Source of the DNA: a virus
Reading direction: 5' to 3' (one strand)
DNA length: 63,596 nucleotides
IMG/VR virus record: IMGVR_UViG_3300005098_000067
Coordinates: 1 to 63,596 of that record
A model generated the notes under the pieces. That model searched no databases. It saw only the letters and a program-made list of their open reading frames with translations, and was not told the DNA's origin. Made by a program: the position numbers and the translations under genes. This document shows positions 5,315-53,054 of this stretch, piece by piece; within the stretch, counting starts at the first letter, position 1; each line of letters starts with the position of its first letter.

Positions 5315-6433
5315 CTACCTCCCTCGCTCTCGACGAATCGACTCCAATAGCTCATCAGACCATATGAGCCTGAACACAGCCTCATCCCACGCGTACTTAG
5401 CCCGCTTATTCTCGCGGTCCCAACCCGCTCGCTTGATATGCTCAATGCGATAGCGCAGTGTGCCACGCAACCGGTGACCGGACAACGCTGGGCTAGGCTC
5501 AAACGGCAAGTCCTCGGCCGGTACCCAATGCCGCGCCATCAGCTCCCGAAGCTCTACCTCAATCCCGCCCCTGAAGAAGGCTACGGCTCCCAGGGGCACG
5601 ACCCCCTCCATTACCCGCCGCTCTCGCTCCAGAGACAGTATCCTCTGCACCACCCAGGTGCCACCGCACCGGAAGGCGATGGCTCTCATCCGACAGCATC
5701 CGCCACCTGGCCACCGCCGCGGCCTGTCCACGGCGTGAGACGGAGGCGGGTCAACTAGCATGGCATCGTAAGCTTGCCGCTCATCCACATCACTGAGGAC
5801 TTCGTATGCCTCGGCAATGCTTCTGAATTTCTCCCCGGCTCCAGGCTCGTGATTAACGTCGGGATGGTACCTCCGCGCTAAAGCCCGAAACGCTCTTTTA
5901 ATCTCGGCCGGTGTTGCCTGGCGGGAGACCCCCAAGCGCGAATAGAAGTCTCCGCGAAATGCTCCTCCATCCCGATCCGACGCGGGCGGGACGAAATAGG
6001 CCCGCGCCACCTCATAGGCAACCCGCAACCAGAGACCGTCCTCTAGCTTCGACAGATAATGAAAATCTGTCCCTGCCCACCTGGGGCGGGAGACGTAGCC
6101 CAACGCTACCTCGATCTCCTCCGCTGCGCGTGCAGCGGGGAAGACTCGAAAGTTACGGGGGCGGGCCCACTCCCTCTCAGTCGGTTCAAACTCCAGGACA
6201 TCCCCTGCCTCGAAATCCCCGAACCGGGCCGTGGGGATCATTGCCTTCTGCTCTTGGCCGTCAGCCTCCCTCAGCAAGACGAAAAACTCTTCGTCCACGG
6301 TCTCCTGGGGCGTGCGCGGGTAGGGCCGGCCGGCGGATATGTCCCGCAACCGTGGCATGTACTTCGCAACTACAAAGTGCATATTCGGCCCAACAGGCAG
6401 TGGAGCTCCCTGCCGGCCATCGCTTAGCTTCAT
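5315..6433 (-). CDS. J-domain (DnaJ-like) co-chaperone fused to unknown domains
   Basis: A 372-residue protein with a complete J domain at about residues 162-226: [20 protein letters not shown], then the RYHPDVN catalytic HPD at 190-192, then [13 protein letters not shown]. The J domain stimulates Hsp70 ATPase, so the protein probably recruits host DnaK. The ~160 residues before and ~145 after are unrecognised; there is no Gly/Phe or zinc-finger region, so this is a type III J protein. Start ATG 6433 overlaps the polymerase stop. Phage J proteins can act in replication-complex remodelling or head assembly; its place beside polymerase and ligase genes favours replication. Confidence 0.85.
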
Positions 6434-7128
6434 AGCTGCTCTCCCGGCCGCCAACATGTGCCCTCAGGCGGGGGACTGGAGGGCGGGCGAGACCGAATCA
6501 AGGCAATCCAGAGCGGGCTGTCCCTGTACTCTGGCGGGCAGTAGGGCAGGTGCAACGCCCGAAAGAAAGCCTCTTCGGACTCGAATCCTACCAGCTTCCC
6601 GTGAGCCTTTATCCCTTCATGGGTAAGGGACAGGCCCATTCGCTTCGCCCGCTGCGCCAGAACGATGTTCTGGAGCGCTCCCGGGTCATCTGGGCCATAG
6701 GTGCCGGGCTGCCGAGCAGGACCGGTGCGGATGACCACCAATGGCCAGAACCGGCGCTCGCTGGCCAGGTAGGCATCGACCTGCACCCCGTCCAGGAAGA
6801 AACGCACACTGCGCCGCCCCGTGTCCCAAATGGAAACCGGGTTCTTCGGCGCCCACTTTTGAGTCGGCTTCACCCAGGCCGGTGCCTGGGGGTCAGCGTT
6901 CTCCATCAGCCACTCGAAGAACGGGACAAACCGGCGTGGCTTGTCGTCCAGCATGTCCCTCTTGCGCAGCTTGAAAACCGGGATGCCTACCACGTCCACG
7001 TCATGAACGCGAGGCTGGCCCCGTCTCAAACTGCCACAGAGCATGAGCCGCTCAAACATCCCCTCCGTCTCGCAGCGAAGCCGCCGCCAGACCTCCATGG
7101 CCACGTCCGCTCTCACCAACATTTTCAT
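6430..7128 (-). CDS. Family X DNA polymerase-like nucleotidyltransferase
   Basis: A 232-residue protein with the family X palm signature: CGSLRRG at 31-37, followed by the metal-binding pair in [10 protein letters not shown] (Asp43, Asp45) and the third carboxylate in VQVDAY (Asp118). The C-terminal segment [18 protein letters not shown] matches the conserved end of bacterial PolX thumbs. The helix-hairpin-helix and PHP domains of bacterial PolX are missing, so it is a minimal polymerase or terminal nucleotidyltransferase. With the ATP-dependent ligase at 9.8-10.7 kb it could form a gap-filling/sealing repair pair. Confidence 0.8.
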
Positions 7129-9817: not shown

Positions 9818-10681
9818 TCAACCTCCCTTTTGACGACTCAAGAGCGGCGGCGCTGTCTTATCCGGGCGCAGACGCTTGAACCTGGGATGGCGAAGCCGCC
9901 CCCCCGAAGTCCAGCGGTCGAACTTCACCTCGACGCAGAACTGCTCTCCGGCTTTGAGCCGATCCGTCAAGGCCCGACGCATCTCGTCGGTCATGCCCGA
10001 CGTGCGCCCCACCTCGACCAGGTTACCTTGTTCGTCCTGGAGCTCCAAGATCAACGCCCCGACCAGGCCCCGATATTTGCCCCGGCCTGGGACGTACCGC
10101 CGCACCCAGGCGTCCACTGTGGACGTCCACTTTACTTTGCGCCAATCCTTTGAGTAGCCGTCTTTGTAGGGCGAGGCCAGGCGTTTCAAGACAAAGCCCT
10201 CTTCGCCTCGTTCCTTCCAGACCTGGATCTCGGCTTTGGTCATTGCTCCCTCCGGGTAGCCTATCTCGATCTCCCAGGCCTGGTTCAGAGTCCAGGCAGC
10301 TACCGCCCGGAGGCCGCGTCGCACCGAGAAGGGCATCCCCCGAACATCCTGCCCGCAAACCCGCGAGCAGTCGAGCAGCGCCGCCCCCGGCTTCTCCACC
10401 CGCTTCCACCCTCCCTCGGAAAGAAGTGTGGCTACCTGCGCGGATGTAGACCGCTCCCCCGCTACCCATTCTACCTGAAAACTGGAATCATACAAGTCGG
10501 GGCAAGTGCACGGCGGCAGCAGGGCTGTGACGTCGCGGGTGACTGTCATGGCGCTGACCCGCCCTCGCTCATCGATGCGAATCTCGCCGGAATAGCCATC
10601 CAACTTGACTTCCGCAACCCAGTCCCCCCTCGCCAAAAGCTCGTAGGCCCTGCCCTCGCTGACCGGTGTTGGCTTCATCAT
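9818..10681 (-). CDS. ATP-dependent DNA ligase, minimal form
   Basis: A 287-residue nucleotidyltransferase-type ligase that would seal nicks using ATP. Motif I is VKLDG (Lys26 is the AMP-accepting lysine), motif III is VEWVAGE near residue 76, motif IV is EEGFVLK at 160-166 and motif V is RKVKW at 181-185. The OB fold follows (about 188-275, with LVGALILELQDEQGNLVEVG). There is no DNA-binding domain before the catalytic core, as in compact phage and LigD-type ligases. It probably works with the phage replication proteins and the family X polymerase nearby. Confidence 0.9.
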   Translation of the reverse strand: MMKPTPVSEGRAYELLARGDWVAEVKLDGYSGEIRIDERGRVSAMTVTRDVTALLPPCTCPDLYDSSFQVEWVAGERSTSAQVATLLSEGGWKRVEKPGAALLDCSRVCGQDVRGMPFSVRRGLRAVAAWTLNQAWEIEIGYPEGAMTKAEIQVWKERGEEGFVLKRLASPYKDGYSKDWRKVKWTSTVDAWVRRYVPGRGKYRGLVGALILELQDEQGNLVEVGRTSGMTDEMRRALTDRLKAGEQFCVEVKFDRWTSGGRLRHPRFKRLRPDKTAPPLLSRQKGG

Positions 10682-38612: not shown

Positions 38613-40321
38613 GATCCTCCCTCCTTCTTTGTCGGACCGCCGAACATGCCGGCCAACGGATGTACCGGGCCGGCACCCAAACTCTCTTGGAGCTCCTTGA
38701 CGACCTTCTCCCCCTTCGAAACCTCAGGGGCTTCCTCCGAGGGGCGAATAGCTGAGGACGGCATCCGCTGCAAGAGAGACTTCATGGCTTCAACCAACTC
38801 TGCCTGCTCCTCGACCGCCTTGAGCCGGGCTTCCATGCCCAAAACGCCGACTTGCAGGGCCTCCAGGCTGGCGCTGACCTTGTCCAACGTCTTGCTGACC
38901 TTGGCTTCCTCACTTGCCGCTTCCTCTTTCGGTTCTGGAGCGGCTGGAGATTCAGTCTTGGCGACCTTCTTGGTCTCCTCTTCGCCTGGCTCGCACTTCT
39001 CGACTTTCTTTTCCTCCTCCTCCTCCTCGCCTTCGTCCGCAGGAGCTTGCTTGGCCTCGGGATACGGATACTTTTCGCCCGCCGACTCCAGAGCGGCGAT
39101 AGCATCCTGTACCAACTTCTGCGTCCCGGCCGGGAGGTCGTCCACAACCCCCTTGAGAGCGGTCAACGCCGCAGCGATGGCCTTAGCGCCTTCGGCCTTC
39201 TGTACTGCGGTCAGTGACTTGGCCTCGCTGCCCAGGAGCTCCTGGAGCATTTTACGCAGGCTCACGGCCTCGTCCTCGTCCTCTGGGTTCAACAACCGCA
39301 GAATCTTTTCCAAATCCATGACTTTCCCTCCTTCTTTCGTAATCGGAGCAATAGCTGTCAAGGGCATGGCGGGCTCATCTGTGATGCTGGAGTCAAACTT
39401 GAGGACCCGCGTATATATGCCCCTCCGCATCTGCCCTATAGGGCACAAAAATCCTATGCTTATACGACATTTACTCCCTCCGTCTCGCTGCAATGCTTTG
39501 TACATCGCGTCCGCCAGGGGGCTTTCGCCGGGTGGCAGGAACGTGCCGAGCTCCAACCAGAAAGGCCCCAATCGCATTTCAAACCTGGAATGCCCTATCA
39601 ACGTCTGTGGTACAGCGTGGGCTATGTACAACTTCGAGCGATAGCCGTACTTCTTCGCCAAGGCTATCGAGAAGTCCATGCCCTCGCGGGTCACCGTCTG
39701 GCCCTCCAGATCCTTCACCGCTGTGGAGACCACAGCGGCATACCAACGCTGCCCCTTGCGATCTTTCCACACCGGGACGGCCGAGCGCCGTCGCAGGGCC
39801 AGAAGCAAGGCAAACAGCGGATATAGCACCTTCTCTTTGGCTGTAGGCGCTGGCTGCGACTTCTCCCATTGCCATAAGCCTCCCACACCCGCCTCGGCTT
39901 TCAAGACGAACAGGCCTTTGAGCTTTTCACCTCCTAGCTTCAGCTTGACAAGCTCTGGCGAATCCTGAACAACGGTGACCGACCCGCTGTCAATGACCTC
40001 GGCTTGGGCCGCTGTGTCTTTGGACGGATTAGCGTCCGTCCCTGGCTCCAAGTCTACCTTGCCTGTTAGCTCATCCGCCGACTTGCCTCCATACTGCAAG
40101 CCGCGCGTGCGCCGCGCCAGGACGGGCCCCTCAGACGCGGGGTCTCGCTCCAGGCCCACCATGCCCACTCCGCCGACGTGCAAGTCCCAAGCTACATCTG
40201 ACGGCCCCCACCTAGTCTGGATCGGCCCTCGCCAAGTGCGGCGAATGAGCACAAACTTGCCGTCTGGCACTCGTTTCTGCTCCACTCCCAGAAATTCGTC
40301 CAACAGAGCTAGACTGTCCAT
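38609..40321 (-). CDS. prohead protease (XkdF-like) fused to an acidic scaffold
   Basis: A 570-residue protein. Residues ~20-160 resemble a phosphoesterase-like fold (VAWDLHVGG; LKGLFVLKAE). Residues ~190-340 fit an XkdF/S78-type protease: YGYRSKLYIAHAVPQTLIGH carries a probable catalytic His, CRISIGFL a probable Ser, and SSITDEPAMPLTAIAPI closes it. The remainder is a long acidic, Glu/Lys-rich coiled-coil scaffold. It starts at ATG 40321 (GGAGGGGG upstream) and ends by overlapping the capsid start. Confidence 0.75.
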   Translation of the reverse strand: MDSLALLDEFLGVEQKRVPDGKFVLIRRTWRGPIQTRWGPSDVAWDLHVGGVGMVGLERDPASEGPVLARRTRGLQYGGKSADELTGKVDLEPGTDANPSKDTAAQAEVIDSGSVTVVQDSPELVKLKLGGEKLKGLFVLKAEAGVGGLWQWEKSQPAPTAKEKVLYPLFALLLALRRRSAVPVWKDRKGQRWYAAVVSTAVKDLEGQTVTREGMDFSIALAKKYGYRSKLYIAHAVPQTLIGHSRFEMRLGPFWLELGTFLPPGESPLADAMYKALQRDGGSKCRISIGFLCPIGQMRRGIYTRVLKFDSSITDEPAMPLTAIAPITKEGGKVMDLEKILRLLNPEDEDEAVSLRKMLQELLGSEAKSLTAVQKAEGAKAIAAALTALKGVVDDLPAGTQKLVQDAIAALESAGEKYPYPEAKQAPADEGEEEEEEKKVEKCEPGEEETKKVAKTESPAAPEPKEEAASEEAKVSKTLDKVSASLEALQVGVLGMEARLKAVEEQAELVEAMKSLLQRMPSSAIRPSEEAPEVSKGEKVVKELQESLGAGPVHPLAGMFGGPTKKEGGS

Positions 40322-40332
40322 ACCCCCTCCTC

Positions 40333-41979
40333 TCACGCCCACTTGTCGGCTTTGTCACCAATGGCTTCCACCGCTGCCCTGCGCTTTGCCAGGCGAGTGG
40401 CCGTATCCCCTTTCTGCCAGTACTGTGCGTCTTTGGGCACCAATTTCAGTAGGGCAGGGGGCAAGGCTGCATGGCCCACAGGTGGCAACCAATCTTTGGA
40501 CACCGCCCCGCGCAGGACATAGGGGGCTTGCTCCTCAACCTGCATCATCTGCCAGTGGATGTCCCGCCCTCCCTTCTCCTCGGCCGGAGGCAAGATTGCC
40601 GCGGCCATTGACCGCACCGCTGCCTCGGAGAACTGGGGCATGGCCAGGCCCAGGAGAAGCTTCACGTCTTCGGGCGAGAGCTCATCCCCGACTTCCTCTG
40701 TCAGTTCGTGGAACTTCGCCAGGGCATCTCCAATCGCGCTGGAGAGAGTCAGGCGTGTGTCACGGTCTATGAACCCTTGAGCAAACATCCGGTCGGCCAA
40801 CACTGTCAATACAAGGTGAATCTGGCTCTCCAGAAACTCGCCAAGCTTGACCGGCTTAGCTTCCTTATCGGAATGTCCTAGAGCGCGGAGCAAATAGCGG
40901 CCTGGAGCCAACCCGTGGCCGCCCCACAAAAAGTACTCGTGCGACCAGGGCTTTTGGGCGCCATAGGCCATCACCCCCTTGTCGGCGATGTAGAAGACTC
41001 CCGCTTCCCCACTGGTTGCCCCGACCGAACCGGGTTCAACCCGACCCTCGACTTTCATCCATTCTATCGGCTCCGGTGCTTTCTCGAAGCAGAGGATGGC
41101 GGTCTTGCGAACGGTGCCGCCGCGCACCTGGCGCTTTCGAAACTGTCCGGTCGTGAAGTTCACCTTCCACCTGGACGGGTCTTTCGAGAGCTGGCGCAGC
41201 TGGGCGACGCTCTCAATGTCTGGCAAAGCTCCCGGCATTTGGACGGCCATTGTCCAGCCCACGAGCAGGTCTTTTGTCAACCGAAAGCGCAAGTCCCCGT
41301 GCACCGAGGCGCCGCGAGCGTGCAAGTGCAACATGTACGGCTGTGGAGCATTCGGATCGGGCGGGAGACGAACATACGGATCAGCAGGCACGGCTTTGGC
41401 TTTAGCGGCTGCCCCATCCTTTTGGGCATCCGCCAGCTGTTCCAATCGCTCGATCAGCTGCTCCGTGCTAAGTTGCTCCCCGACCTTCCTGACCTGCGCC
41501 CCCTCGTCGCCTATCTTTTCGGGGACTTCGCCGTTCGCAACAAACCAGCACCGAACTATGTCTCGCTCTTCCTCCCGAGCCCAATCCTTGAAATGGCGAA
41601 GGCAGAACCAGGCCCGTCCGCGCCCGTCAGCCCAATGAACGTCCACCTGGGGCGGGGCTGAGCAGACCATGCACTTGTCGCGGCGATGGCGGGTCTTTTC
41701 CTGAGCTTCGCCTTCGCGGGCGAGCGGCTCTCCCTGGTCCCCTTCCCCTTCGACAACCCACAGGCGCGATCCTGCAATCAAGCGGGGGAGCAACTTCCAG
41801 TGCGTGGGATTGCTGGGGTCAAAATTCTCGCCGTCCAAACCCCCAAAAGGAGTTTCCAGCAGGAAGGAGCGGAGCTTCAGGTCTCCCTCCCACTGGGCGC
41901 GCCGGCCGATGACCGTCGCACGGGCTTTCTCATGCGTTTGTCCTTCGCTGTCCCTGCTCAGAAACCGATAGACGCTCAT
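40333..41979 (-). CDS. head-region protein with zinc finger and LigD-type phosphoesterase-like domain
   Basis: A 548-residue protein. CMVCSAPPQVDVHWADGRGR, then CLRH (residues 103-129) forms a likely zinc site. Residues ~214-400 contain MLHLHARGASVHGDLRFRL and LVGWTMAVQMPG, then GSVGATSGEAGVFYI and HEYFLWGG, which follow the order of LigD 3'-phosphoesterase domains: H...H.DLR and a later G..GA...G...H. The C-terminal ~150 residues (FAQGFIDRDTRLTLSSAIGD) are helical. It overlaps the ligase-kinase gene (ATGA). Confidence 0.6.
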   Translation of the reverse strand: MSVYRFLSRDSEGQTHEKARATVIGRRAQWEGDLKLRSFLLETPFGGLDGENFDPSNPTHWKLLPRLIAGSRLWVVEGEGDQGEPLAREGEAQEKTRHRRDKCMVCSAPPQVDVHWADGRGRAWFCLRHFKDWAREEERDIVRCWFVANGEVPEKIGDEGAQVRKVGEQLSTEQLIERLEQLADAQKDGAAAKAKAVPADPYVRLPPDPNAPQPYMLHLHARGASVHGDLRFRLTKDLLVGWTMAVQMPGALPDIESVAQLRQLSKDPSRWKVNFTTGQFRKRQVRGGTVRKTAILCFEKAPEPIEWMKVEGRVEPGSVGATSGEAGVFYIADKGVMAYGAQKPWSHEYFLWGGHGLAPGRYLLRALGHSDKEAKPVKLGEFLESQIHLVLTVLADRMFAQGFIDRDTRLTLSSAIGDALAKFHELTEEVGDELSPEDVKLLLGLAMPQFSEAAVRSMAAAILPPAEEKGGRDIHWQMMQVEEQAPYVLRGAVSKDWLPPVGHAALPPALLKLVPKDAQYWQKGDTATRLAKRRAAVEAIGDKADKWA

Positions 41980-44690
41980 CTGATGAGATCCTCCGGGGCT
42001 AAGGCTATGCGCCGCTCCATGGCTCGCCACTCCTTCAGGGTTATTACTCCCTCGGCTACCAGCCTGTCACGTAGCTTCTTGTCGGCCAGTACCCGCCTCG
42101 CCGGGGCCAGGTCCTCCGACGTCAACCCTCGCAAACCGTACCGCTTAAACGTCGTGGGCCAGTACTTGTCGCGCTGCTTGCCCCTCAGCCTCCTCGGATA
42201 ACCGTTATCAATTGCATAGGCGTGCTTGCCGTCCTTCGAGAAGATTATGTTGCCGAGGTGCCTGTCTTTGTTCCCGGTCATCAGGTCCAAAACCCGTATT
42301 CGGATCAGGTCTTCCTTAGCCGAGTCCTTTAGCTCGCCCCCGAACTCCAACGCCACTTCCGTGTCCTCTATCCAGTGATGGACAGACTCTGTCTCTGAGC
42401 GAACTACCGTCCGAGGCACCAATCCCGTGTAGCCCATAGCCTCAGCAAGCTCATAAGCTGACCGCTCCATGCGCGGATCGCTGCCCGCGGCCGACCCCTG
42501 CCTGTACTGCCCCTTGACCAGCACCCGACCGTCACCCTCCAGAAAGGCAACGTAACTGGGATTTATCCCCGCTTCGTAATCCGCATCGGCTTGCTTGATC
42601 AGCCGGCCGTTGCGCATCAACTCCTCTGAGGGAGCTTGATGCCTGAACCTTCGCGCTTGTATCCGCGCATTCACTTCGTCCACGGACATGCCCGGCTTAA
42701 TCCCAAGCGCCGCATGTCCCCCTCCGGGCGCTGACCCACCACGGTGACCAGGTATGCCGGCATGAGCCCAATGGCCCGAGGCGGAAGTTCCCACTTTCTC
42801 GACAAGCGTGAATTCCCCGTCCTTCCGAACCGTGAGTATTCCTGCTTCACGAGCTCGCTTGACCACGGCGTCCAATGAGTCGGCCTTGTCCGTTGTTGCC
42901 TCCAGGACGCGCGGCTTCCAGAACGTGACCCGCTTGCTGCCCGCATCGTCGTACAGGTTTACGGTCTCGGCTTCAACCTTGAACGTGTCGCCGGGCTTTA
43001 GCTTTAGAGCTGTGCCGAAGCTGTTGCCCACCCGGCTGACCTTGCCCTCGTGCATGACTCCAAACGTGTAGACGTGCGCTGGGCCTTTGGTCGGTTTCTC
43101 CTCGATGACTTGCACGGTGGCCACAATTGCTTTGTGGTACTTCAACCAGGTCTTATTGTCCTCCGACTGGACAACGAAGCCCTCGCTGCCAGGATAGCCG
43201 GGCAAAGCTTTAGCCCACTTGGCTAGGTCAGCCTGAGTGCTGCACTTGAAATGCTTCAGGACATACAGCTCTCCGTTCTTGGGCGTCTGCTTATCCAGGA
43301 CGGGCGGGCCCCAAGACTCTAGCGCCGAGACCACCTCCGGCATGGGCAGCAGCTTGCCTCCCGGCCCAAACCAACCGTAGACCACCAAGCTGAACTTACC
43401 CCTGAGGTCACCGGTATGCATCAACCCCACACTGGCCTCACGCGGGAAGTGGGCTCCACCCTCCCAATGCTCGAGCTCCCCGTCTACAAGCCAATCTCCC
43501 GCTGGCCAGTCGAAGTCCAGGCCCTTATCGCCTCCTACTGCCAACTTGGTTCCGTCCTCCGTCCAAGCCTCAACCTTCCCGCCGCGCCGGGAGATCACCA
43601 GGTGCGCCCCGTCCCGCTTAACCGAAATCCATACGGGCAAGGGGACATCCTTCAGGGCTGCAAGCACGTTCTCCACCGTCTGAGGTCGTTCCCCTGTCGC
43701 GCGAGCAGGCTTCGGCGGGTAGAACCATTCTTTGGCGACTGTAACTTCTTTGCGCAAAGATTCGAATTCCGGCTCCTCGATGTCCTGCACTATGGCTGTG
43801 CGCTTGGGCCGCAGTACCAGGTCGTAAACCGAGACGTAGGGCCAGTTCGGGCCAAAAGCTGTAGGATGCCAATCGATGTCCAGGTCCTCAATCCCTAACC
43901 TCTCTCGTAACGCACGCTGGAGCTTCAGAGCGAAGGAATCATCTACCTCCAGATGGAACCGACCCGACTTCTCGTCAGCGGTTGCCCGCAGAACTACATC
44001 TACGTCGTGGGGCAGCCTGTCTCCCTCTTTCAAATAGACCAGGCTACCCGTCACACTCAGGAAATCCGGCACCCAAACGAACTCCGGCAGGTCAGACAGA
44101 TCCAACAGGTGCGATCCTGTCATCTTGAGGACGACCTCGTCCATGAACGTTTGCACGCCCTGAGGGACGGCGACCTCGGCTGGTCTCCCGAAAGGCGTCC
44201 AGCGTCTCAAATTGTAAAGGTACAGCTTGTCGTGGCCCGGCCACCATTCTTTGCGCTCTTCCTCCGTAACGCGGTGCTTGTCTGCTTGGCGGGCAAATTC
44301 TGACAGGTCAATCTCCACTGGTTCGTCAAATTCTGCCAGACCGAAGGCTAATCCTGTCCCGTTCTCCTTGGAGACTATGACCAACGGCCCGCGCATGTCG
44401 AACTTCTTGGCCTTGACCACAGCCTTCTTCTTGCCCTCCCAAATCAGCCGACCGTGGGGCGGGACCAGGTACAGCCCCCTATGACGGCCTTTGACCTCCT
44501 TGAGGGGCGAGGCGTGTTTCATCTTGCGCCGGCGCATCTCGGCTGAAATCAGCCTGTGTGCTCGCTCCACCTTGCGCTTGAGCTTGGCGTCTCCCTGCGA
44601 CCAAAGCTGGTGACAGCGAAAGTGCAGGGACAGAAGCTCCTGGTCGTCTACGTCTTGCAGTTTGGCAGCAAAGATTTCATCGAGGTTCAT
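41976..44690 (-). CDS. giant multidomain protein: ASCH-like, nucleotidyltransferase, ATP-dependent DNA ligase, capsid-type linker, PI3K/HipA-like kinase
   Basis: A 904-residue protein. Residues ~75-165 resemble an ASCH domain (IWEGKKKAVVKAKKF; HRVTEEERKEWWPGHDKLYL). Residues ~190-295 are a nucleotidyltransferase: TGSLVYL (215), HDVDVVL (Asp229, Asp231) and SVYDLVL (Asp290). Residues ~350-598 are an ATP-dependent ligase: motif I VKRDG (Lys358), III LVDGELE, IV SEGFVVQS, V TWLKYHK, then an OB fold. A Gly-rich linker GHWAHAGIPGHRGGS follows at 639-653. Residues ~700-840 are a kinase: VLVKGQY (Lys726), catalytic loop GNKDRHLGN (806-814), metal-binding AIDNG. It lies within the head module. Confidence 0.8.
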   Translation of the reverse strand: MNLDEIFAAKLQDVDDQELLSLHFRCHQLWSQGDAKLKRKVERAHRLISAEMRRRKMKHASPLKEVKGRHRGLYLVPPHGRLIWEGKKKAVVKAKKFDMRGPLVIVSKENGTGLAFGLAEFDEPVEIDLSEFARQADKHRVTEEERKEWWPGHDKLYLYNLRRWTPFGRPAEVAVPQGVQTFMDEVVLKMTGSHLLDLSDLPEFVWVPDFLSVTGSLVYLKEGDRLPHDVDVVLRATADEKSGRFHLEVDDSFALKLQRALRERLGIEDLDIDWHPTAFGPNWPYVSVYDLVLRPKRTAIVQDIEEPEFESLRKEVTVAKEWFYPPKPARATGERPQTVENVLAALKDVPLPVWISVKRDGAHLVISRRGGKVEAWTEDGTKLAVGGDKGLDFDWPAGDWLVDGELEHWEGGAHFPREASVGLMHTGDLRGKFSLVVYGWFGPGGKLLPMPEVVSALESWGPPVLDKQTPKNGELYVLKHFKCSTQADLAKWAKALPGYPGSEGFVVQSEDNKTWLKYHKAIVATVQVIEEKPTKGPAHVYTFGVMHEGKVSRVGNSFGTALKLKPGDTFKVEAETVNLYDDAGSKRVTFWKPRVLEATTDKADSLDAVVKRAREAGILTVRKDGEFTLVEKVGTSASGHWAHAGIPGHRGGSAPGGGHAALGIKPGMSVDEVNARIQARRFRHQAPSEELMRNGRLIKQADADYEAGINPSYVAFLEGDGRVLVKGQYRQGSAAGSDPRMERSAYELAEAMGYTGLVPRTVVRSETESVHHWIEDTEVALEFGGELKDSAKEDLIRIRVLDLMTGNKDRHLGNIIFSKDGKHAYAIDNGYPRRLRGKQRDKYWPTTFKRYGLRGLTSEDLAPARRVLADKKLRDRLVAEGVITLKEWRAMERRIALAPEDLIR
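43748..43759. promoter_or_regulatory. palindrome CTTTGCGCAAAG inside the ligase-kinase gene
   Basis: The only intragenic perfect copy. It lies in the segment encoding the region between the nucleotidyltransferase and ligase domains. Confidence 0.3.
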
Positions 44691-44699
44691 GTCTAGCTT

Positions 44700-45170
44700 T
44701 CACGGCTTGCCCATGGATAACTGGCCCTGAGTCGGGAAATACACCCTCATCTCCCCCTCTCCTATTGGATCCTCCGGGGGATCTACCTCGGCCCACACTT
44801 CAAATGACCCGGGCCTGCCCCTCGCCGTGACCTTTACCCGTGCCCACCGAGGGGAAAAGAACCGTCTGAGCTTGGGCTGTGGAATGGCTGTCACCTTCAG
44901 AATGTCCTTGGGCTTGAACCCTGCTTCCTCGACAAGAAACGTTCGCGCCTTCTCCGCCGCCGCATCTTGGAACTCCTCCCAGGACATGGCGAAATAGGCT
45001 GCACGCCTGTCAGCTGGAGCGCTACCTCCTCTGTGCCCCGGCCTCCCAGAATGTCCGAAATTCCCTGATCCGGGCCCTCCCTTAGAAACTGGAGGCAGCC
45101 GATTGTACCAGTTCACCAGAAGCTCCACGTCCATGCCTTGCAATTCGGCACCGGTTCTATCGAGGCTCAT
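44700..45170 (-). CDS. head-region protein with SGNFGHSGRPG motif (short)
   Basis: A 156-residue protein. VNWYNRLPPVSKGGPGSGNF, then GHSGRPGHRGGSAP is at residues ~20-55, nearly identical to the neighbouring 233-residue protein. The C-terminal domain (AAAEKARTFLVEEAGFKPKD; RVKVTARGRPGSFEVWAEVD) is a different small alpha/beta fold. The motif is shared with two adjacent head genes. It may mark proteins carried in the capsid, or be a maturation-cleavage or packing site. Confidence 0.65.
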   Translation of the reverse strand: MSLDRTGAELQGMDVELLVNWYNRLPPVSKGGPGSGNFGHSGRPGHRGGSAPADRRAAYFAMSWEEFQDAAAEKARTFLVEEAGFKPKDILKVTAIPQPKLRRFFSPRWARVKVTARGRPGSFEVWAEVDPPEDPIGEGEMRVYFPTQGQLSMGKP

Positions 45171-45191: not shown

Positions 45192-45893
45192 CTACTCCGG
45201 GACTTCATCTATCTTTTTCGCAAACTCACTCTCCGGGAATTCTCCCGTCCGAATGAAATGGTCACACAGGGCTAGGGCTGGCTCTAGCTTCATCCCTTCG
45301 TACTCGTACAACGCCTCGTACGGCAGTCCTGGCGAGCCCCACCTCTTACCGAACAACCAAAGCCCAACCTTGACTACGGGCGCTCCTCCCCGACCGCCTT
45401 CTGGCTCGCACAATATTTGAACTGACTTGTTTGGATCATCTCGCTTATCCCTGATGTACACAGCACCATGACCAGAACCTCGCTTCTGCCACCCCTTCGG
45501 CGCAGGCGGCGTTATATCGGGGGGCGGCTGATTCCAACGGCCCCTACGAGGCCTCATCCACCAAGGTTGCTTGCTAGGCGCGGAACCTCCTTTCTGTCCC
45601 GGCCTGCCGGCATGACCAAAATTCCCTGACCCGGGCCCTCCCTTAGAGACTGGGGGCATCCGGTTGTACCAGTTCACCAGGGCTGCGTCGAGTCCCACGA
45701 GTGCAACGCCGCATTCGGGGCATTTTTGGGCTGTGCAAGGCTTCCCGCGCTCATGGGCATACTTCTTCCCACACTTGGGGCAGACACACTGCGCTGGCCC
45801 TCCGTCCCCCTGCCGAGGGCCGCCCATCCCTTGCCCCTCGCCCCGCGTTCGTGAAACTGGCAAGCAATCCAACCAACCAATGACTCTTGGCAT
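45192..45893 (-). CDS. head-region protein with zinc ribbon and SGNFGHAGRPG motif
   Basis: A 233-residue protein from ATG 45893 (AAAAGGAGCG upstream). CVCPKCGKKYAHERGKPC then CPECG is an intact zinc ribbon (residues ~36-61), followed by VNWYNRMPPVSKGGPGSGNF and GHAGRPGQKGGSAP. The C-terminal domain (GAVYIRDKRDDPNKSVQILC) is unassigned. It is closely related to the next gene in its motif region. Confidence 0.65.
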   Translation of the reverse strand: MPRVIGWLDCLPVSRTRGEGQGMGGPRQGDGGPAQCVCPKCGKKYAHERGKPCTAQKCPECGVALVGLDAALVNWYNRMPPVSKGGPGSGNFGHAGRPGQKGGSAPSKQPWWMRPRRGRWNQPPPDITPPAPKGWQKRGSGHGAVYIRDKRDDPNKSVQILCEPEGGRGGAPVVKVGLWLFGKRWGSPGLPYEALYEYEGMKLEPALALCDHFIRTGEFPESEFAKKIDEVPE

Positions 45894-45894
45894 C

Positions 45895-46599
45895 TCACTC
45901 GCTCCTTTTCGGGATGGCTTTAGGCGGGCCGTGGCCTGGCCACCAACGGCCCTCAAACTTGCGCCTGGTTCCGGCTCGAAGGTGGCGGACGTAGCGAGCT
46001 ATCGGGAACCGAGCTAACCTCAAGCCTCGCCTGCTGGCCTCACGCATGTTCCAAAAGGCCGGGGTACCGTGATGCCGAAAGGGCGGCAGCTCCAGGTACT
46101 TCTCCCGATCCAGTAGCATTCGAGCCGGGTGGGCTCCGGGGACATACCGGCTTCCCTCGTGACTGAAAGCCTCTGCCCTCTGCACAGAGGGCTGGTGTGC
46201 ACGCAGCACCGCTCCGCTTGCCGGGCGAGTGCTTACCCAATAGCGAATTGCTCCCACCGCATACACCTGGTCATCCTGGAAGAACTCAAGCATCTGTTCC
46301 AGGAATCCACCGGCAATGACCTGGCAGTCCGAATCCAGCGTGAAGACGTACCGAGTCTGAGCAGCGAGGATGGCTTGATGCAGAGCCGGACCGTGACCCA
46401 CGTTGTCCTCATTCAAGAGGGCTCGCGTGACCTTGCTCCTCCGGGCCAAATTGCAGATGTAGCGCGTCGAACTGTCATGCGAGCCGTTGTCTACAATCAG
46501 CAAACTCACGCCAGGATAGAAACGACGCAGGCTGCGGATGCAATCCTGAATCAAGGCCAACGTCTGAAAGTTAACCGAGACAACGGTTACGTCCACCAT
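45895..46599 (-). CDS. GT2-family glycosyltransferase in the head module
   Basis: A 234-residue GT-A enzyme: VDVTVVSVNFQTLALIQDCI, LLIVDNGSHDSSTRYI, HGPALHQAILAAQTRYVFTL and the metal motif in LDSDCQV. It starts right after the T-run of a terminator with no visible ribosome site, and its stop is two bases before the next ATG. Expression control here is unusual. Confidence 0.8.
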   Translation of the reverse strand: MVDVTVVSVNFQTLALIQDCIRSLRRFYPGVSLLIVDNGSHDSSTRYICNLARRSKVTRALLNEDNVGHGPALHQAILAAQTRYVFTLDSDCQVIAGGFLEQMLEFFQDDQVYAVGAIRYWVSTRPASGAVLRAHQPSVQRAEAFSHEGSRYVPGAHPARMLLDREKYLELPPFRHHGTPAFWNMREASRRGLRLARFPIARYVRHLRAGTRRKFEGRWWPGHGPPKAIPKRSE

Positions 46600-47592: not shown

Positions 47593-49697
47593 CACCGAAA
47601 CCTCAGGAAGCAATAGCAACCCGGGTGATAGGCAGGACCGAAGTAGCCGGGTACTACCTCGGCACTTAACGGCACCCAGCCGGCCGCCTCCGCTCTGATG
47701 CAGACTCCAGAAGGGCAGGGGCGACCGTAATCCGCCCGAACTGATGACTTCTCGACCATACCTGCATCCTCGGCGGCAGTGAGCTGACCTTGGGCCCATA
47801 GAGCTGTATTCTCAGTGACCCCTATCCTCTTGGCGCGGGCTTCCCCGAAAAGAGGAATCAGAGCGTCTTCCAAATCTGACCAGGCCAGAGTGCCATCTGC
47901 AAGCCGGGCGCGAACCTTGCCCAACTTGGAGCGAGTCACGCGGACTATGGACTCGTCCCCATCCAACTTGACCAGAGCAAACGCCTGCTGCTCGGCCAGC
48001 AGGCGAATCCGATCGTTGATCCGCTCGAACGAGAAGTCTAACCCTGTGGAGCTCGCACCCTGGCCCGCTGTCAACTGGTAGGGACCTAATACTTGCTCGC
48101 GGATGGAATCCCCCCAGTCCTCCCAGTAGGAATCCTCATCAAGACTGTCAGGGTCATCCTCGAGGCGGGCAAGCACATCCCTCTTCCACCGAGCCAGAAT
48201 AGCCGTGAACAGTGCTGTCAACGTCTCCCAATCCTTGCGCATCAGGCTGATCATGGCCTCTATGCCTGCTCGCTCGCGGGCTGTCTTCAGCACGGGTAGG
48301 GCGGAGCTGTTCAGGTCCCAATAGCGACGGTGGCGAATCAGTACCCCTTCGGGATACCGCATTGTCCCCACGTCGCAACCCCACAGCTCACGCAATACAT
48401 CCGTCGCCAACCGTTCGGGCGGGGTGACGTAGCGCTGTGGGATTACCTGCTGCTCGGCCAGCATTTCCCGGATTTCCTCCCGCTCGAAGAGGCGCTCTCC
48501 CTTAGCATCCGGAGCCCACAGTTCCTTGGCATTCCTGATCCGTAGGGCGCGGATCTCCTCAACCAGCTTGTCCTGCTCGTCGTCAGGCGTGTCAAACCGC
48601 CAGTAGAATCCCTTGGGCAGCTGGCGATTCACCCAACGCTCCCAAGAGACCATGAACTCGGCCGGGCCTTTGCCCAGAGCCTTCCGATGTTGCAAGGACG
48701 CCTGGGCCTTGGTCGCCCCGTGCGCCTCGATCTGATAGAATTCAGCCACGTCCTCCCCGGCGTCCAGGGCAAGGGTCTTCATGAACCGCTGCATGAACGC
48801 CGCATCGTCAAATCCTTCCCACACCGAGCGAAAGGACGTCCAGGAGACCTCAGCTTTTTGACCATACGTGTTACTGACCAGCCACAACACCCCAGGGAAG
48901 ACCAGCGAGCCTGCCTCCTGCCGCTTTAGATCGAACTCCAGCAAAGCATTCTCCAGCTGGGGCTTCGTCAAGCCCGTGACGCTGGCAATCCCTGAAGGCG
49001 GCAGATTTCCCAACCGCTCCTCTTTGAACTCCAACTCCTCGGCTGCCAGGGCTGCCTCCCTGAGAACCCGGCTCATGAAACAAAAGCCCAGCATCCGCCG
49101 CCACTGGTCGGCGCTGGGCATAGAGCAAATCCGCACAAACTGGCCCCGCTTGAGCCCCTTCCAACGTCCGTCAGCATCCATGAACAAAAGGTCGAATATT
49201 TCTGTCCCCACGCGTACAGGGCCAGGGACGCAGGTTCGCGCCTGCATCCACCAGATCTTTTGCAGCGGGCCGTCTGGTTGCCATTCCCGAGCTGTCTCGA
49301 TGATGAACCCCTCGTCAGTGCTCAGGTAGTCGATGTAGCCGGGGCGAATGAAGTCCGTCCAGCCGTCCAGGTCGGCCCCGGCGAATATCTCATACTGGCG
49401 CTCCAGCTGCTTGACCGGGCCCGAAATGGACCAACCCAATGCTGCCACACGCGAGACCATGCTGAACATGACCCCCGACAGGCGCGAGTCGGCTCTCCAG
49501 ACAGCCTCCAGGAAGGCAGGGCGGGTTATGGGCGTCCCCCAGGGCGGAGCGGCGTCGTGGGCCGTGCGCAGCCAGTCCGCGTAGGAGGCCATGATCCAGC
49601 CGCCCTGGGCCAATATCTCGGGCCTCTCGATCCGCGCCTGGACGCTTCTCGGCGAATCTCCCTTGGCATCCGTGATAGCTACCAATTCATCCAGCAT
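47592..49697 (-). CDS. portal protein with C-terminal MuF-like domain
   Basis: A 701-residue protein. The first ~470 residues form a portal of the DUF935/Mu-like type (DWLRTAHDAAPPWGTPITRP, SRVAALGWSISG, GWTDFIRPGYIDYLSTDEGF, EGFDDAAFMQRFMKTLALDA). The rest has RWKRDVLARLEDDPDS and a MuF-type ending with cysteine/histidine pairs (CPSGVC, HPGCYC). MuF domains are inner-capsid proteins. The start overlaps the sulfotransferase stop and has GGGGAGG. Confidence 0.85.
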   Translation of the reverse strand: MLDELVAITDAKGDSPRSVQARIERPEILAQGGWIMASYADWLRTAHDAAPPWGTPITRPAFLEAVWRADSRLSGVMFSMVSRVAALGWSISGPVKQLERQYEIFAGADLDGWTDFIRPGYIDYLSTDEGFIIETAREWQPDGPLQKIWWMQARTCVPGPVRVGTEIFDLLFMDADGRWKGLKRGQFVRICSMPSADQWRRMLGFCFMSRVLREAALAAEELEFKEERLGNLPPSGIASVTGLTKPQLENALLEFDLKRQEAGSLVFPGVLWLVSNTYGQKAEVSWTSFRSVWEGFDDAAFMQRFMKTLALDAGEDVAEFYQIEAHGATKAQASLQHRKALGKGPAEFMVSWERWVNRQLPKGFYWRFDTPDDEQDKLVEEIRALRIRNAKELWAPDAKGERLFEREEIREMLAEQQVIPQRYVTPPERLATDVLRELWGCDVGTMRYPEGVLIRHRRYWDLNSSALPVLKTARERAGIEAMISLMRKDWETLTALFTAILARWKRDVLARLEDDPDSLDEDSYWEDWGDSIREQVLGPYQLTAGQGASSTGLDFSFERINDRIRLLAEQQAFALVKLDGDESIVRVTRSKLGKVRARLADGTLAWSDLEDALIPLFGEARAKRIGVTENTALWAQGQLTAAEDAGMVEKSSVRADYGRPCPSGVCIRAEAAGWVPLSAEVVPGYFGPAYHPGCYCFLRFR

Positions 49698-50466
49698 CGC
49701 CGACCTCCCCTGTCCTAGCGGTCAAATAATCTGACTCATCCTGTAGCCAATCTGGATTGCCGCTAACTCGCACCGCCCGCTCCAAGACATCGTAGTTCTC
49801 GACAATGAGCGACAACGGGTACAAGTTCTGCCGCCGCAGTGGGCTGGTCATGGGGCTGTCCTGGACGCCCAGAAATTCACAGATGCGGCGATTTGTCTCC
49901 GGTGGCAAAGCTGAGGCTTCCATCGCTTCCGCGCCCACGATCTGCGCATAGGTCAGCTCCAAGACCGGGAGCCCGGTGCCCGCAAGCCTCTCCCGCATCC
50001 TCCCTATCTGGCGCTCCAGCTTCCTGGCCTGCTTGAGGACATTTTCTGGATCAACCGTTATCCTGGTCAACGGCCCGACCTCGAACGAGTGCTCCTGGCG
50101 AGAGGGCAAATCCCCCCGCCTGGCCCTGGTGTGCAGGATGGCCGAGATCGCCGTACGTAGGAGATTGCCTCTGGTCAGGTGGATGACCTTGGCCTGACGG
50201 TTCGTTAGATAGTTCAAAACTGGATCGGTGACCTGCTTGTACGTGACCTTGCACATGGCTACTGAGTAGCCCCATTGGCCATGGACGATCTGAAGTATCT
50301 GAACCGGGGACAGCTTGGCTTTGCGGAAGGCGGAGCGCATCTCGAGGGGCTCCGAACGAGGGCAGAAAACCTGAGGATGCGTGGATAAACAGTGCGCCAG
50401 GAACGTGGAACCGGAACGCACGTGCGCTATCAGAATGGCCGGCCTGGTTTCGAGCCACGACTTCAT
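49687..50466 (-). CDS. PAPS-dependent sulfotransferase
   Basis: A 259-residue sulfotransferase-fold protein. The 5'-phosphosulfate-binding motif VRSGSTFLAHCL is at residues ~16-27, and the 3'-phosphate-binding RGNLLRTAISAIL is at ~103-115, with a later YAQIVG and YDVLERAV. It probably transfers sulfate from PAPS to a sugar or protein; Stf0 or heparan-type relatives are the nearest. The gene lies between terminase and portal. AGGAGCTTGCA precedes the ATG. Confidence 0.8.
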   Translation of the reverse strand: MKSWLETRPAILIAHVRSGSTFLAHCLSTHPQVFCPRSEPLEMRSAFRKAKLSPVQILQIVHGQWGYSVAMCKVTYKQVTDPVLNYLTNRQAKVIHLTRGNLLRTAISAILHTRARRGDLPSRQEHSFEVGPLTRITVDPENVLKQARKLERQIGRMRERLAGTGLPVLELTYAQIVGAEAMEASALPPETNRRICEFLGVQDSPMTSPLRRQNLYPLSLIVENYDVLERAVRVSGNPDWLQDESDYLTARTGEVGDAG

Positions 50467-50558
50467 TGCAAGCTCCTATGTGACTCAGTGCAATACTAGC
50501 CTACATTATAACAGAAGACAGGCGATCTGTCAATCACTCCACAAATCTTATCCGTCGC

Positions 50559-51095
50559 TCAGAACCTCCTGCACTTTACCCGCTTGCACCCTAACTCAAC
50601 TTGACGCGGGCCGAACCCTGCACGCGCCTCCTTGTCGAGCCACAACGGATGGTCGGCCAGAGAAGCGTACTCAATCTCGAAGGCATTGGGGATCAACGCT
50701 CTCTGATGCGAGGCCCAAAAGTCGTACTTGACCTGGGCAATGCAGCCCTCCGTGAGACCGTAACCGGCCAGTTCACGCTGCATCCTGCGCCCTGTCCAAC
50801 CTATCCGCTGCTGTGACTCCAGAATCTCGGCCAGGGGGCGACGCATGAGCACTACGGCCACTTCCGGCCCCGCAAGCTCGTGAATCCAGCGGCAAAGGCC
50901 CGGGCACTGCAAGACAAACTCGCTCTCCTCGGCAAGCAACCTCCGAGCCGCGTCTAGCGAGCGAACACTCACGACCTCCTCCGGCAAGAACCTGTACCCC
51001 AGGTCATGGGCAATCATCATCGCGCAAATGGTCGTCCCTGACCGCTGAGGACCGGTGACCAAAATCTGACCGAACCTGGACAACTGGGCGAACAT
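50559..51095 (-). CDS. second sulfotransferase-fold protein
   Basis: A 178-residue protein from ATG 51095 (GGTGGAGG upstream). LVTGPQRSGTTICAMMIAHD is a clear phosphosulfate-binding loop, and VVLMRRPLAEILESQQRIGW the following strand-helix. It is shorter than the neighbour, so the acceptor side is reduced. The P-loop could also fit a kinase, but the RSGTT signature favours a sulfotransferase. Confidence 0.7.
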   Translation of the reverse strand: MFAQLSRFGQILVTGPQRSGTTICAMMIAHDLGYRFLPEEVVSVRSLDAARRLLAEESEFVLQCPGLCRWIHELAGPEVAVVLMRRPLAEILESQQRIGWTGRRMQRELAGYGLTEGCIAQVKYDFWASHQRALIPNAFEIEYASLADHPLWLDKEARAGFGPRQVELGCKRVKCRRF

Positions 51096-51596
51096 CAACC
51101 TCCACCTAACGCCCCAAGGGGCAGGATTTTGAGAAAAATAGACCGAGTCGGGGGACGGGATACCTGGTATTCTGAGACCGCCAATATTTTTTTCTGACTT
51201 AGGGTAGGGATAATAAGAATTATGCGAACCATGACCGGCCTGGGCGCATGTTAATGTAAGTTAGCGATGTTTAGCGTATAAGCGTTAAATGCGCTAGTGG
51301 GGCAGGAAAATAGGAAGCCCTCTAGCCTTATGAGAGGCGGAACACTCCGCGTCCCTTTGCTCCGCCTCGTCTCCCCAAACCTTCTAGGGCTCTCCTGGCC
51401 CTAGAGCGGGTTTCAGTAGGGCAGGGAAGGGGATAGGGAAGCGGGAAGGGCGATTGGCAGCTGTGATGCTGCGAAGAGTTTGCTCGCCCTAGCTCCTCGG
51501 CCTGTATTGTGGGCCTATGAGCTATGGTCTTGTCCTTGTTGCCGGGTAAGCCTACCATACCTTCCTCGCCGGTCTGGTTACCCTCGCGTTCTTACT
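51096..51596. other. 500-bp non-coding gap after terminase gene
   Basis: Between the terminase stop and the second sulfotransferase. Near the right-hand edge are several GC-rich and AT-rich tracts, a GCCCC/GGGGC stem just before the sulfotransferase ribosome site, and TTAGCG/AGCG repeats (~51260-51290). I see no good promoter or gene; a 76-codon frame at 51328-51558 is low-complexity and was not accepted. Confidence 0.4.
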
Positions 51597-53054
51597 CTAG
51601 ACGACCAATGCCCCCCCGGCTTGTATGCCCCCAAATCGGGCGGCCTCGGCGAGGACGTGTTCAGCGGCATCCGAGAAGTCGTTGAGCTTCTTCACCTCTA
51701 ATCCCTTTGTGTTTCTGTGGAGTGCTTTGAACTGTTGGGCGACCGTGGGGCAGGCCTCGCGGTCTATCTGGAGCAGGGGGCCTTTGTCGGGGTCAATGAG
51801 CCTCCGTACCAGCCTATGGCGTTCTTCACGCCGCATGACCCGCAGGGGGACGACCACCAGGCCTGCCTCGGCGAACGCGGCAAGGGATGAGGGCTGATCT
51901 GGCGGGCAGAAGAAGGGCGTATCCCAGCCGTACTTGTCGGCCAGCGATACTGCTATCTCCAGTTCCCTGGATGGGGTGCAGAAGCGCTCTCCCCGTTCCT
52001 CAATGAGCCAATAGCGGCCCCCTGGGAGCTCAGCAGCGACGACGAAGACGAGCGGGTGATCGAACCCCCAGTCCACTCCTACGCCCTGGGGAGTACGGCG
52101 CAGCTTGGCTACCTCAGGAGCTAGGCGGGAGGCGTGCACCTCGACGGAGAAGCGAGGGAAGATGAGCATTTCGCGCTCCGGGGCGGCCAGGAGTTTCTGT
52201 ACCAGGAAGGTCTCCGCGTCCGAGGATAAGTACTCGTCTATGGCATCGACGCGTCTTACCCAGCCGTCCGCTCTAATGCACCGCCCGCCGCAGAGTGGCT
52301 CTTTCTTGTTCGTTCGCGGGTTCGTCCAGACGAAGAGCGGGCACTTCTCCCGGAGGCAGGTCTCACAGCGCTGCATGGTCTCCCAAAGGCACCATCGGTA
52401 GGTCTTGTACCCCCGCGCCCTTGCTATGGGGAGCAACTCTTGCATGAGCCCGTAGGCTGTGTACCGAGTGCTTATAGCCGCGCGTTGGGGCGGGTTGGCT
52501 TTCGAGCCCGAAAGCATGAGCTGGGCCGTCTCGAAGTTCTGGAACGACCAGAGGTCTATCTCGTCCATGATCAGCCTGTTACAGCGAATGGCCGTGACCC
52601 CTGTAGGCGTGTGACCTGAAAGGGCGCGAACCCAGGACCCGTTCTTCCAGGTGATGCTCCCGGCCACGTTCCGCGCAATGTCGGCAGCTAAAGCTGGCTC
52701 TTTGAGCATGTCGACCAGGTAGCCGTGCCCCCATTCCCCCTGGCTGCCTATGGCCCCATAGTGCGCTGTGCCTGAACCTGGATAGAACTTCGAGGCGAGC
52801 AGGTTCAGGATGGCCAGGTTTCGGGTCTTGCCTGCACCACGAGCGGCCAGGACCAGGGCTCTCTGAACCTTGCGGAAGAACATGTCCGAGACGAACGTGA
52901 AGGGGGCTTGGTGGTCTGGACAGACGGCTACACGGGGAATCTTGAAGCCGAGGACGGCATGGATCCAGGCGTGGAGCGCTTCGGGCGTCTTGGGGCGACG
53001 GCCGGAGACTACCAGGAGCTGCCAAAGGTTGCTGAGGAGGCTTTCGTCGGTCAT
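51597..53054 (-). CDS. terminase large subunit
   Basis: A 485-residue packaging motor/nuclease. Walker A LAARGAGKTRN (69-79), Walker B RLIMDEIDLW (160-169), a coupling region, and nuclease carboxylates GVDWGFDHPLVF and NDFSDAAEHVLAEA. A cysteine cluster (CETCLREKCP; LCGGRC) lies between the ATPase and nuclease domains, which is unusual. The start overlaps the DpdA stop (ATGA). Confidence 0.95.
   Translation of the reverse strand: MTDESLLSNLWQLLVVSGRRPKTPEALHAWIHAVLGFKIPRVAVCPDHQAPFTFVSDMFFRKVQRALVLAARGAGKTRNLAILNLLASKFYPGSGTAHYGAIGSQGEWGHGYLVDMLKEPALAADIARNVAGSITWKNGSWVRALSGHTPTGVTAIRCNRLIMDEIDLWSFQNFETAQLMLSGSKANPPQRAAISTRYTAYGLMQELLPIARARGYKTYRWCLWETMQRCETCLREKCPLFVWTNPRTNKKEPLCGGRCIRADGWVRRVDAIDEYLSSDAETFLVQKLLAAPEREMLIFPRFSVEVHASRLAPEVAKLRRTPQGVGVDWGFDHPLVFVVAAELPGGRYWLIEERGERFCTPSRELEIAVSLADKYGWDTPFFCPPDQPSSLAAFAEAGLVVVPLRVMRREERHRLVRRLIDPDKGPLLQIDREACPTVAQQFKALHRNTKGLEVKKLNDFSDAAEHVLAEAARFGGIQAGGALVV

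Follow-up and report, generated by a model that had tools for sequence, protein, structure and literature searches.

Large proteins that combine several enzymes and are encoded among virion genes have been described as polyvalent proteins. They are multidomain and are proposed to be packaged into the virion and injected, and in the survey that describes them (PMC5512222) they include kinases, pol-beta nucleotidyltransferases, and methylases. In that survey, the pol-beta nucleotidyltransferases are reported from conjugative-element proteins only, and the processing enzyme is a zincin metallopeptidase. A search of the text of the survey for DNA ligases, LigD-type phosphoesterases, ASCH, or HipA returned none of these; the word "ligase" was found three times, and the passages listed are on RNA ligases. 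Several other systems are relevant. LigD links polymerase, phosphoesterase (PE), and ligase domains (POL-PE-LIG). Its PE uses Q40 and the Mn-site residues H42, H48, D50, and R52, also needs H84 and Y88, and acts on 3'-ribonucleotides too (PMC8656161). In MuF-effector fusions, enzyme domains are attached to a head-morphogenesis protein. In phage SPN3US, the prohead protease cleaves head proteins, and the head also carries proteins that are ejected with the genome (PMC10052503). The XkdF proteases (PF14550) have a homolog in ORF12 of psiM2, whose annotation is structural protein. Finally, the ANMV-1 virus, which was assigned to an archaeal host (PMC4372165), encodes an 866-aa protein annotated as "ATP-dependent DNA ligase" (AJP62006, from KP703175); a ligase is not mentioned in the text of the ANMV-1 paper. 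In the open-access literature that we searched, we found no description of a family that brings LigD or ligase domains together with head proteins.

We analyzed a viral record of 63,596 bases (the window). The initial annotation of the window had reported a 904-residue protein at 41976-44690 that joins ASCH-like, nucleotidyltransferase, ligase, and kinase domains. The coordinates are right, and we add the strand, which was not given: P0001 (904 aa; ASCH-NTase-ligase-OB-linker-kinase) runs on the minus strand from an ATG at 44690 to a stop at 41976, and the plus strand has many stops over this stretch. (All of the window coordinates given below are on the minus strand.)

P0001 begins with a helical leader (LEAD; residues 14-59, 44514-44651), which was identified with an HMM and is a helical hairpin in the structural model. 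LEAD is common to 41/53 loci of the family described below and often lies immediately ahead of the nucleotidyltransferase (NTase). The leader is followed by an ASCH/PUA-like domain (residues 72-186, 44133-44477), which was recognized by its profile. The ASCH-like identity is probable: the domain is present in 25/53 loci, it is modeled at ~96 pLDDT, and the region has a weak match in the PDB (TTHA0113, 2dp9/1wk2; phmmer E ~0.09). This domain probably recognizes nucleic acid. Next is a predicted pol-beta superfamily NTase (residues 203-294, 43809-44084). The GS...DxD motif that was noted initially is conserved: an alignment of 29 sequences shows no variation at G215, D229, and D231, but leaves the position of the third carboxylate ambiguous. 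Over this domain, the family profile matches DNA polymerase beta in the PDB weakly (E 0.05).

The middle of P0001 corresponds to an ATP-dependent DNA ligase, with an adenylation domain (residues 321-525, 43116-43730) and an OB-fold domain (residues 526-600, 42891-43115). K358, D360, G361, E405, S502, E503, G504, and K517 are invariant in 29 aligned sequences, and the KxDG motif, the E of motif III, the (S)EG of motif IV, the K of motif V, and the OB fold are all present. The initial annotation had named the loss of key residues on careful alignment as a refutation; the tested ligase residues and the G..DxD of the NTase are kept. Against the PDB, the family profile matched DNA ligases (archaeal, LIG1, LIG4, and LigD) with E values down to 9e-25. 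The OB-fold region is beta-rich, with pLDDT ~95. In the AlphaFold2 model of P0001, the ligase and OB domains have pLDDT ~90-97, while the leader and NTase are moderate. When this model was compared to the PDB with Foldseek, the 50 matches listed were all DNA ligases or ligase-containing complexes (best E 1e-13), with the ligase matches spanning ~380 columns. These results agree with the earlier description of a complete ligase with an OB fold. Pfam does not call the ligase from the window sequence by itself, so its identification rests on the family.

The initial annotation missed a key partner, which is the phosphoesterase gene next to P0001. P0009 (40333-41979; ATG at 41979, within a frame that is open from a GTG at 42030) combines a Cys/His zinc-finger-like segment with a LigD-type 3'-phosphoesterase. 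Its ATG overlaps the stop of P0001 (ATGA at 41976-41979), which suggests that the two genes may be translationally coupled. P0009 itself has no match in Pfam or PHROG. Its relatives match LigD_N from Pfam at 1e-5, which is below the curated cutoff, and the profile of the phosphoesterase family matches 3p4h in the PDB (E 0.0015). The model of P0009 has pLDDT 90-98 over positions 220-384, and Foldseek found only two significant matches for it in the PDB, 3p43 (E 9e-5) and 3p4h (E 5e-4). Both are archaeal LigD 3'-phosphoesterases (TMt 0.74-0.75, probability 1.0 against the model). Among viral structures (BFVD), none matched the model at E<=0.001.

Within the phosphoesterase domain of P0009 (PE1; 40879-41376), H237, H244, D246, and R248 (numbered from the GTG at 42030) do not vary among 35 sequences, 27 of which have Q at position 235. 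These residues equate to H42, H48, D50, R52, and Q40 of LigD, with one extra residue between the histidines. The equivalents of H84 and Y88, which we aligned by eye, are replaced (E/Q320 and W324), so the phosphatase chemistry may differ from that of LigD. An alignment of diverse PE sequences gave no usable pattern. Taken together, the conserved and changed residues imply that the fold and the metal site are retained and that part of the phosphate-binding site is altered. Sequence comparison and modeling thus identify P0009 as a predicted, divergent LigD-type 3'-phosphoesterase. Downstream of PE1 is a conserved segment, PEC (KxWxPPxGxSALP..YW; 40381-40554).

The following gene encodes P0010 (38609-40342), which lies between the phosphoesterase and capsid genes. 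The N-terminus of P0010 matches the PE profile weakly and contains a second phosphoesterase-like domain (PE2; 39881-40258, identified with an HMM). In most relatives PE2 comes after PE1, and the segment is fused inside the ANMV-1 protein and other polyproteins. The middle part of P0010 is of no known family: there was no PHROG or Pfam call, and a profile comparison with XkdF was negative. This is followed by an acidic coiled tail. Judged by position only, P0010 is a probable head protease or scaffold.

A scan of viral contigs with P0001 as a single protein found nothing. ANMV-1's AJP62006 is 24% identical to the NTase-ligase-OB part of P0001 (E 3e-16 pairwise; tblastn E 5e-11), and its C-terminal third is 38% identical to P0009 (E 6e-28). 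AJP62006 contains NTase-ligase-OB and PE in one chain; its PE-PEC-PE2 part corresponds to P0009 and P0010, and its gene lies after a portal-like gene and before one that encodes a protein with a MuF-like end. Unlike the proteins of the window, it is a single chain and is without the ASCH domain, the linker, and the kinase. The ligases of Rhizobium/Sinorhizobium phages, which were found along with ANMV-1, are not adjacent to annotated head genes.

When we searched viral contigs, the conserved PE stretch of P0009/ANMV-1 yielded 7 contigs and the ligase region yielded 60 loci. We built locus profiles by iteration (E<=1e-4) and removed obvious duplicate contigs, which gave 53 loci, including the window; some near-duplicates, such as L036/L037, remain among them. 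The NTase, the ligase, and the phosphoesterase are all present in 46/53 loci. All three are in a single ORF in 27/53, and the NTase and the ligase share an ORF in 44/53. The polyproteins are up to 2011 aa, with extra domains that include D12 methylases, a second methylase-like domain, and metallo-beta-lactamase. The order ASCH-NTase-ligase recurs in two other loci (L013 and L042), which rules out the artefactual assembly join that the initial annotation had considered, at least for this part of P0001. In the single close pair with measurable dS, dN/dS was 0.06, which points to purifying selection in that pair.

A scan of 84,980 species genomes gave three matches, all to metagenome-assembled contigs (two from Planctomycetota and one from Dehalococcoides), so the family is essentially viral in this search. 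One of the Planctomycetota contigs (L072) has a tail-sheath-like ORF nearby. Since TBP is found in ANMV-1 and in another contig (L016), some of the hosts are archaeal, and the Planctomycetota case suggests that some are bacterial.

Like LigD, the viral set includes a DNA ligase, a LigD-fold PE whose metal-site residues are kept, and a polymerase-like enzyme. But in the viral set a pol-beta-type NTase takes the place of the AEP polymerase, H84 and Y88 of the PE are replaced, the genes are in viral head operons, and there is no Ku. (Ku, PF02735, is absent from 38 records, several of which are fragments.) We therefore rejected an identity with LigD or with classical NHEJ, given no Ku, no AEP, and two changed residues in the PE.

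The gene order on the minus strand of the window is P0012, the terminase large subunit, P0007, small ORFs with GGPGSGNFGH linkers, P0001, P0009, P0010, and P0011. The terminase large subunit (51597-53054) matches phrog_2 weakly (E 2e-4) and is related to TerL of two other loci (L004/L005). P0007 (47592-49697) is portal-MuF-like, with a weak match to the portal family phrog_2662 (E 7e-4) and a Cys/His MuF-like C-terminus. P0008 (44700-45170) is a small ORF upstream of P0001 with the canonical GGPGSGNFGHSGRPGHRGGSAP linker. P0011 (37161-38612) has no PHROG match and is, by its position, the probable major capsid protein. P0012 (53051-54877), which adjoins TerL directly on its upstream side, is similar to queuine tRNA-ribosyltransferases (TGT-like; phrog_887, E 6e-34); a further match, to a terminase small subunit family (phrog_6902, E 1e-4), lies in its C-terminal part. 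P0012 might perform DpdA-like DNA modification. Sulfotransferase-like ORFs and a glycosyltransferase-like ORF, which we recognized by eye from their N-terminal sequences, also lie within the head module (49687-51098 and 45895-46599).

Across the family, one or more head-gene signals accompany 45/53 loci. Most of the remaining loci are truncated at one end or have untyped neighbors. The PHROG-typed neighbors are TerL, portal, and MuF upstream and the head protease and major capsid protein downstream. The assignment of P0001 to a head module by the initial annotation holds, and we consider both the domains and the head location to be well supported.

Furthermore, some of these enzymes are fused to head proteins. 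In 14 loci (15 ORFs; L062/L063 are duplicates), the phosphoesterase ORF, which usually includes the ligase too, ends in a head-maturation protease, as identified by profile. We compared seven of these protease C-termini to PHROGs, and 7/7 match phrog_3017 (E 1e-17 to 2e-41); the three that were compared to Pfam all match XkdF (1e-30 to 1e-32). In L013, PE2 is fused in front of the protease. Five loci (L030, L035, L040, L041, and L049) encode a portal with an ASCH domain joined to its C-terminus. Enzyme domains in this family are thus carried mainly by the protease and by the portal and not by MuF, which distinguishes them from MuF-effector fusions, and the fused peptidase is XkdF and not the zincin of polyvalent proteins. 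With the protease and portal fusions, it is likely that the enzymes are loaded into the procapsid, and the fusions are the best evidence for this step. This evidence stems from the relatives; no protease domain can be recognized in the equivalent part of P0010 in the window. The C-termini of relatives also match phrog_1530 (named DNA methyltransferase) and phrog_14859 (named RNA ligase), and the C-terminal parts of these profiles match XkdF, hinting at either further enzyme-protease fusions or misnaming.

Because the same enzyme set is found in the same place in ~50 other viruses, and is often fused to the protease, it is probably packed and delivered with the DNA. Our preferred reading, to which we give an even chance, is that P0001 and P0009 form a LigD-like kit for healing and sealing ends that is packed in the head, processed by the protease, and ejected with the DNA. 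The polyprotein would enter the procapsid via its protease or portal partners, and the head protease would cut it into working pieces, which would be retained in the virion and ejected together with the DNA. Once inside a new host, the phosphoesterase would clean 3' ends that are blocked by a phosphate or a ribonucleotide, the NTase would add or fill nucleotides, and the ligase would seal nicks or join ends ahead of any viral gene expression. A virion-carried repair enzyme had been suggested initially; that idea gains from the fusions in relatives and from the LigD-type partner, while carriage, injection, and catalysis are inferred. The polyvalent proteins and the prohead-protease processing in SPN3US are precedents for such a route.

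More broadly, these loci may represent an undescribed and widespread class of archaeal and bacterial tailed viruses with a Ku-free LigD-like end-joining machine in the capsid. This machine would reach the cell together with the genome and be freed by the protease, allowing viral DNA to be healed, sealed, or circularized at entry without host enzymes or newly made ones. We offer this general form tentatively, with the balance tipping against it. If it is true, the virions of tailed viruses contain a kit for DNA repair, carried as a processed polyprotein that is built on head proteins. This would change views of genome entry, damage survival, and circularization for many uncultured archaeal and bacterial viruses, and an independent LigD-like enzyme set without Ku would become available. 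The protease and portal fusions make the packaging claim directly testable. P0001 unites several disparate domains in one protein in a virion and packaging gene context, as polyvalent proteins do, and the system is best read as a variant of that kind, in which the Ku-free LigD-like ligase/PE/NTase set in head genes would be new.

Alternatively, the enzymes might act during assembly, by sealing nicks and cleaning ends of the DNA during packaging at or in the procapsid, instead of being injected effectors. The fusions and the place between the portal and capsid genes fit this role equally well, and this virus also encodes P0012, which is TGT-like, may modify DNA, and has a segment similar to a terminase small subunit. 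However, the catalytic domains would be packed alongside the DNA anyway, and injection has been proposed for comparable multidomain proteins (PMC5512222). We consider a role confined to assembly to be unlikely, although it is, with RNA repair, one of the two main rivals.

Another possibility is that an injected NTase-ligase-phosphoesterase set mends tRNA or other RNA that has been cut by host antiviral nucleases. RNA binding is frequent for ASCH/PUA-like domains, which fits this idea. The ligase does not: its profile matches DNA ligases to 1e-24, none of the 47 PDB matches of the family profile is an RNA ligase, and it bears a DNA-ligase-type OB fold. Pairs of a pol-beta NTase and an RNA ligase do occur in phages, as with RlaP of jumbo phages (PMC7824862), and 3'-ribonucleotides are also substrates of the LigD PE (PMC8656161). 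On the whole, RNA repair seems distinctly unlikely.

The C-terminal region of P0001 (residues ~700-880, 42051-42593) has the motifs of a PI3K/HipA-like kinase in order, as was first noted: K726, E742, D809-R-H-x-x-N814, and D828. Its match to PF00454 is below the cutoff (E 9e-4, 19.7 bits versus 27.1), and AlphaFold2 modeled it poorly (most of it at pLDDT <50), with no homologs of the kinase in the alignment. The kinase resembles domains in head genes of HRTV-type haloviruses; a scan with a longer query found only a halovirus, and a scan with a shorter query found mixed kinases. Gp16 of HRTV-11 (L003:8218-9690), whose gene lies between head-completion and tail-completion genes, has a PI3K-like kinase domain, and so does a protein from another large phage contig (L075:6756-8480; PF00454, E 1.5e-11). 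Among the 53 loci, the kinase was detectable with its profile in the window only (1/53), and there is no other independent case of the ligase joined to a kinase. The occurrence of P0001's domains together elsewhere, which the initial annotation had asked about, is thus confirmed for ASCH-NTase-ligase and not for the kinase, whose fusion appears to be unique to this window. In our preferred reading, the kinase would be an extra effector, with a protein of the host or of the head as its substrate.

The initial annotation also proposed host takeover. In such a reading, the kinase would be the main activity, the ASCH domain and the NTase would modify host proteins, and the ligase would be secondary or structural. 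The presence of the kinase in just 1/53 loci, together with the invariant residues of the ligase and the PE, makes this very improbable, although PI3K-like kinases do occur in halovirus head genes and in one predicted protein from a different phage, and protein modification has been proposed for the kinases and NTases of polyvalent proteins (PMC5512222).

Ahead of the kinase is a divergent SGNFGHAGRPG-type linker (residues 634-661, 42708-42791; SGHWAHAGIPGHRGGSAPGG), with the divergent copy itself at residues 638-652. Perfect copies are found in two ORFs upstream of P0001, and none are expected in shuffled sequence; canonical GGPGSGNFGHxGRPG copies are at 45612-45638 and 45051-45077. The linker is found in at least 119 viral contig stretches, and the 132 ORFs that we examined have 166 copies, with at most 5 per ORF. 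The copies separate unrelated domains, so the linker is possibly a hinge for domain shuffling. A tblastn search with the linker peptide gave no match, and we found no description of it in the literature. The initial annotation was correct that the linker is present, but its diagnostic value is lost: as a general phage element, the linker alone is no evidence for virion carriage, and we dropped the idea that it marks virion cargo.

Least probable of all is that these are ordinary replication or repair genes that lie beside head genes by chance: the stand-alone ligase and a PolX-like ORF elsewhere in the window show that the virus has repair genes, but the position is conserved across most of the 53 loci, and both the head protease and the portal occur covalently fused to parts of the set.

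The stand-alone ATP-dependent ligase is encoded outside the head module (9818-10681; DNA_ligase_A_C, E 1e-11), so the ligase in the head module is not the sole ligase of this virus. The PolX-like ORF (6430-7128), which is also outside the head module, has a PolX thumb domain and a GS..DVDVV motif. A 380-aa ORF at 5315-6457 has a DnaJ domain (E 2e-23).

Two of the relatives have intein-like insertions. One is inside the ligase, beside motif V (L007:4983-9941). The other, with LAGLIDADG, is inside the phosphoesterase (L010:3143-6133). Inteins are usually placed in conserved active-site stretches.
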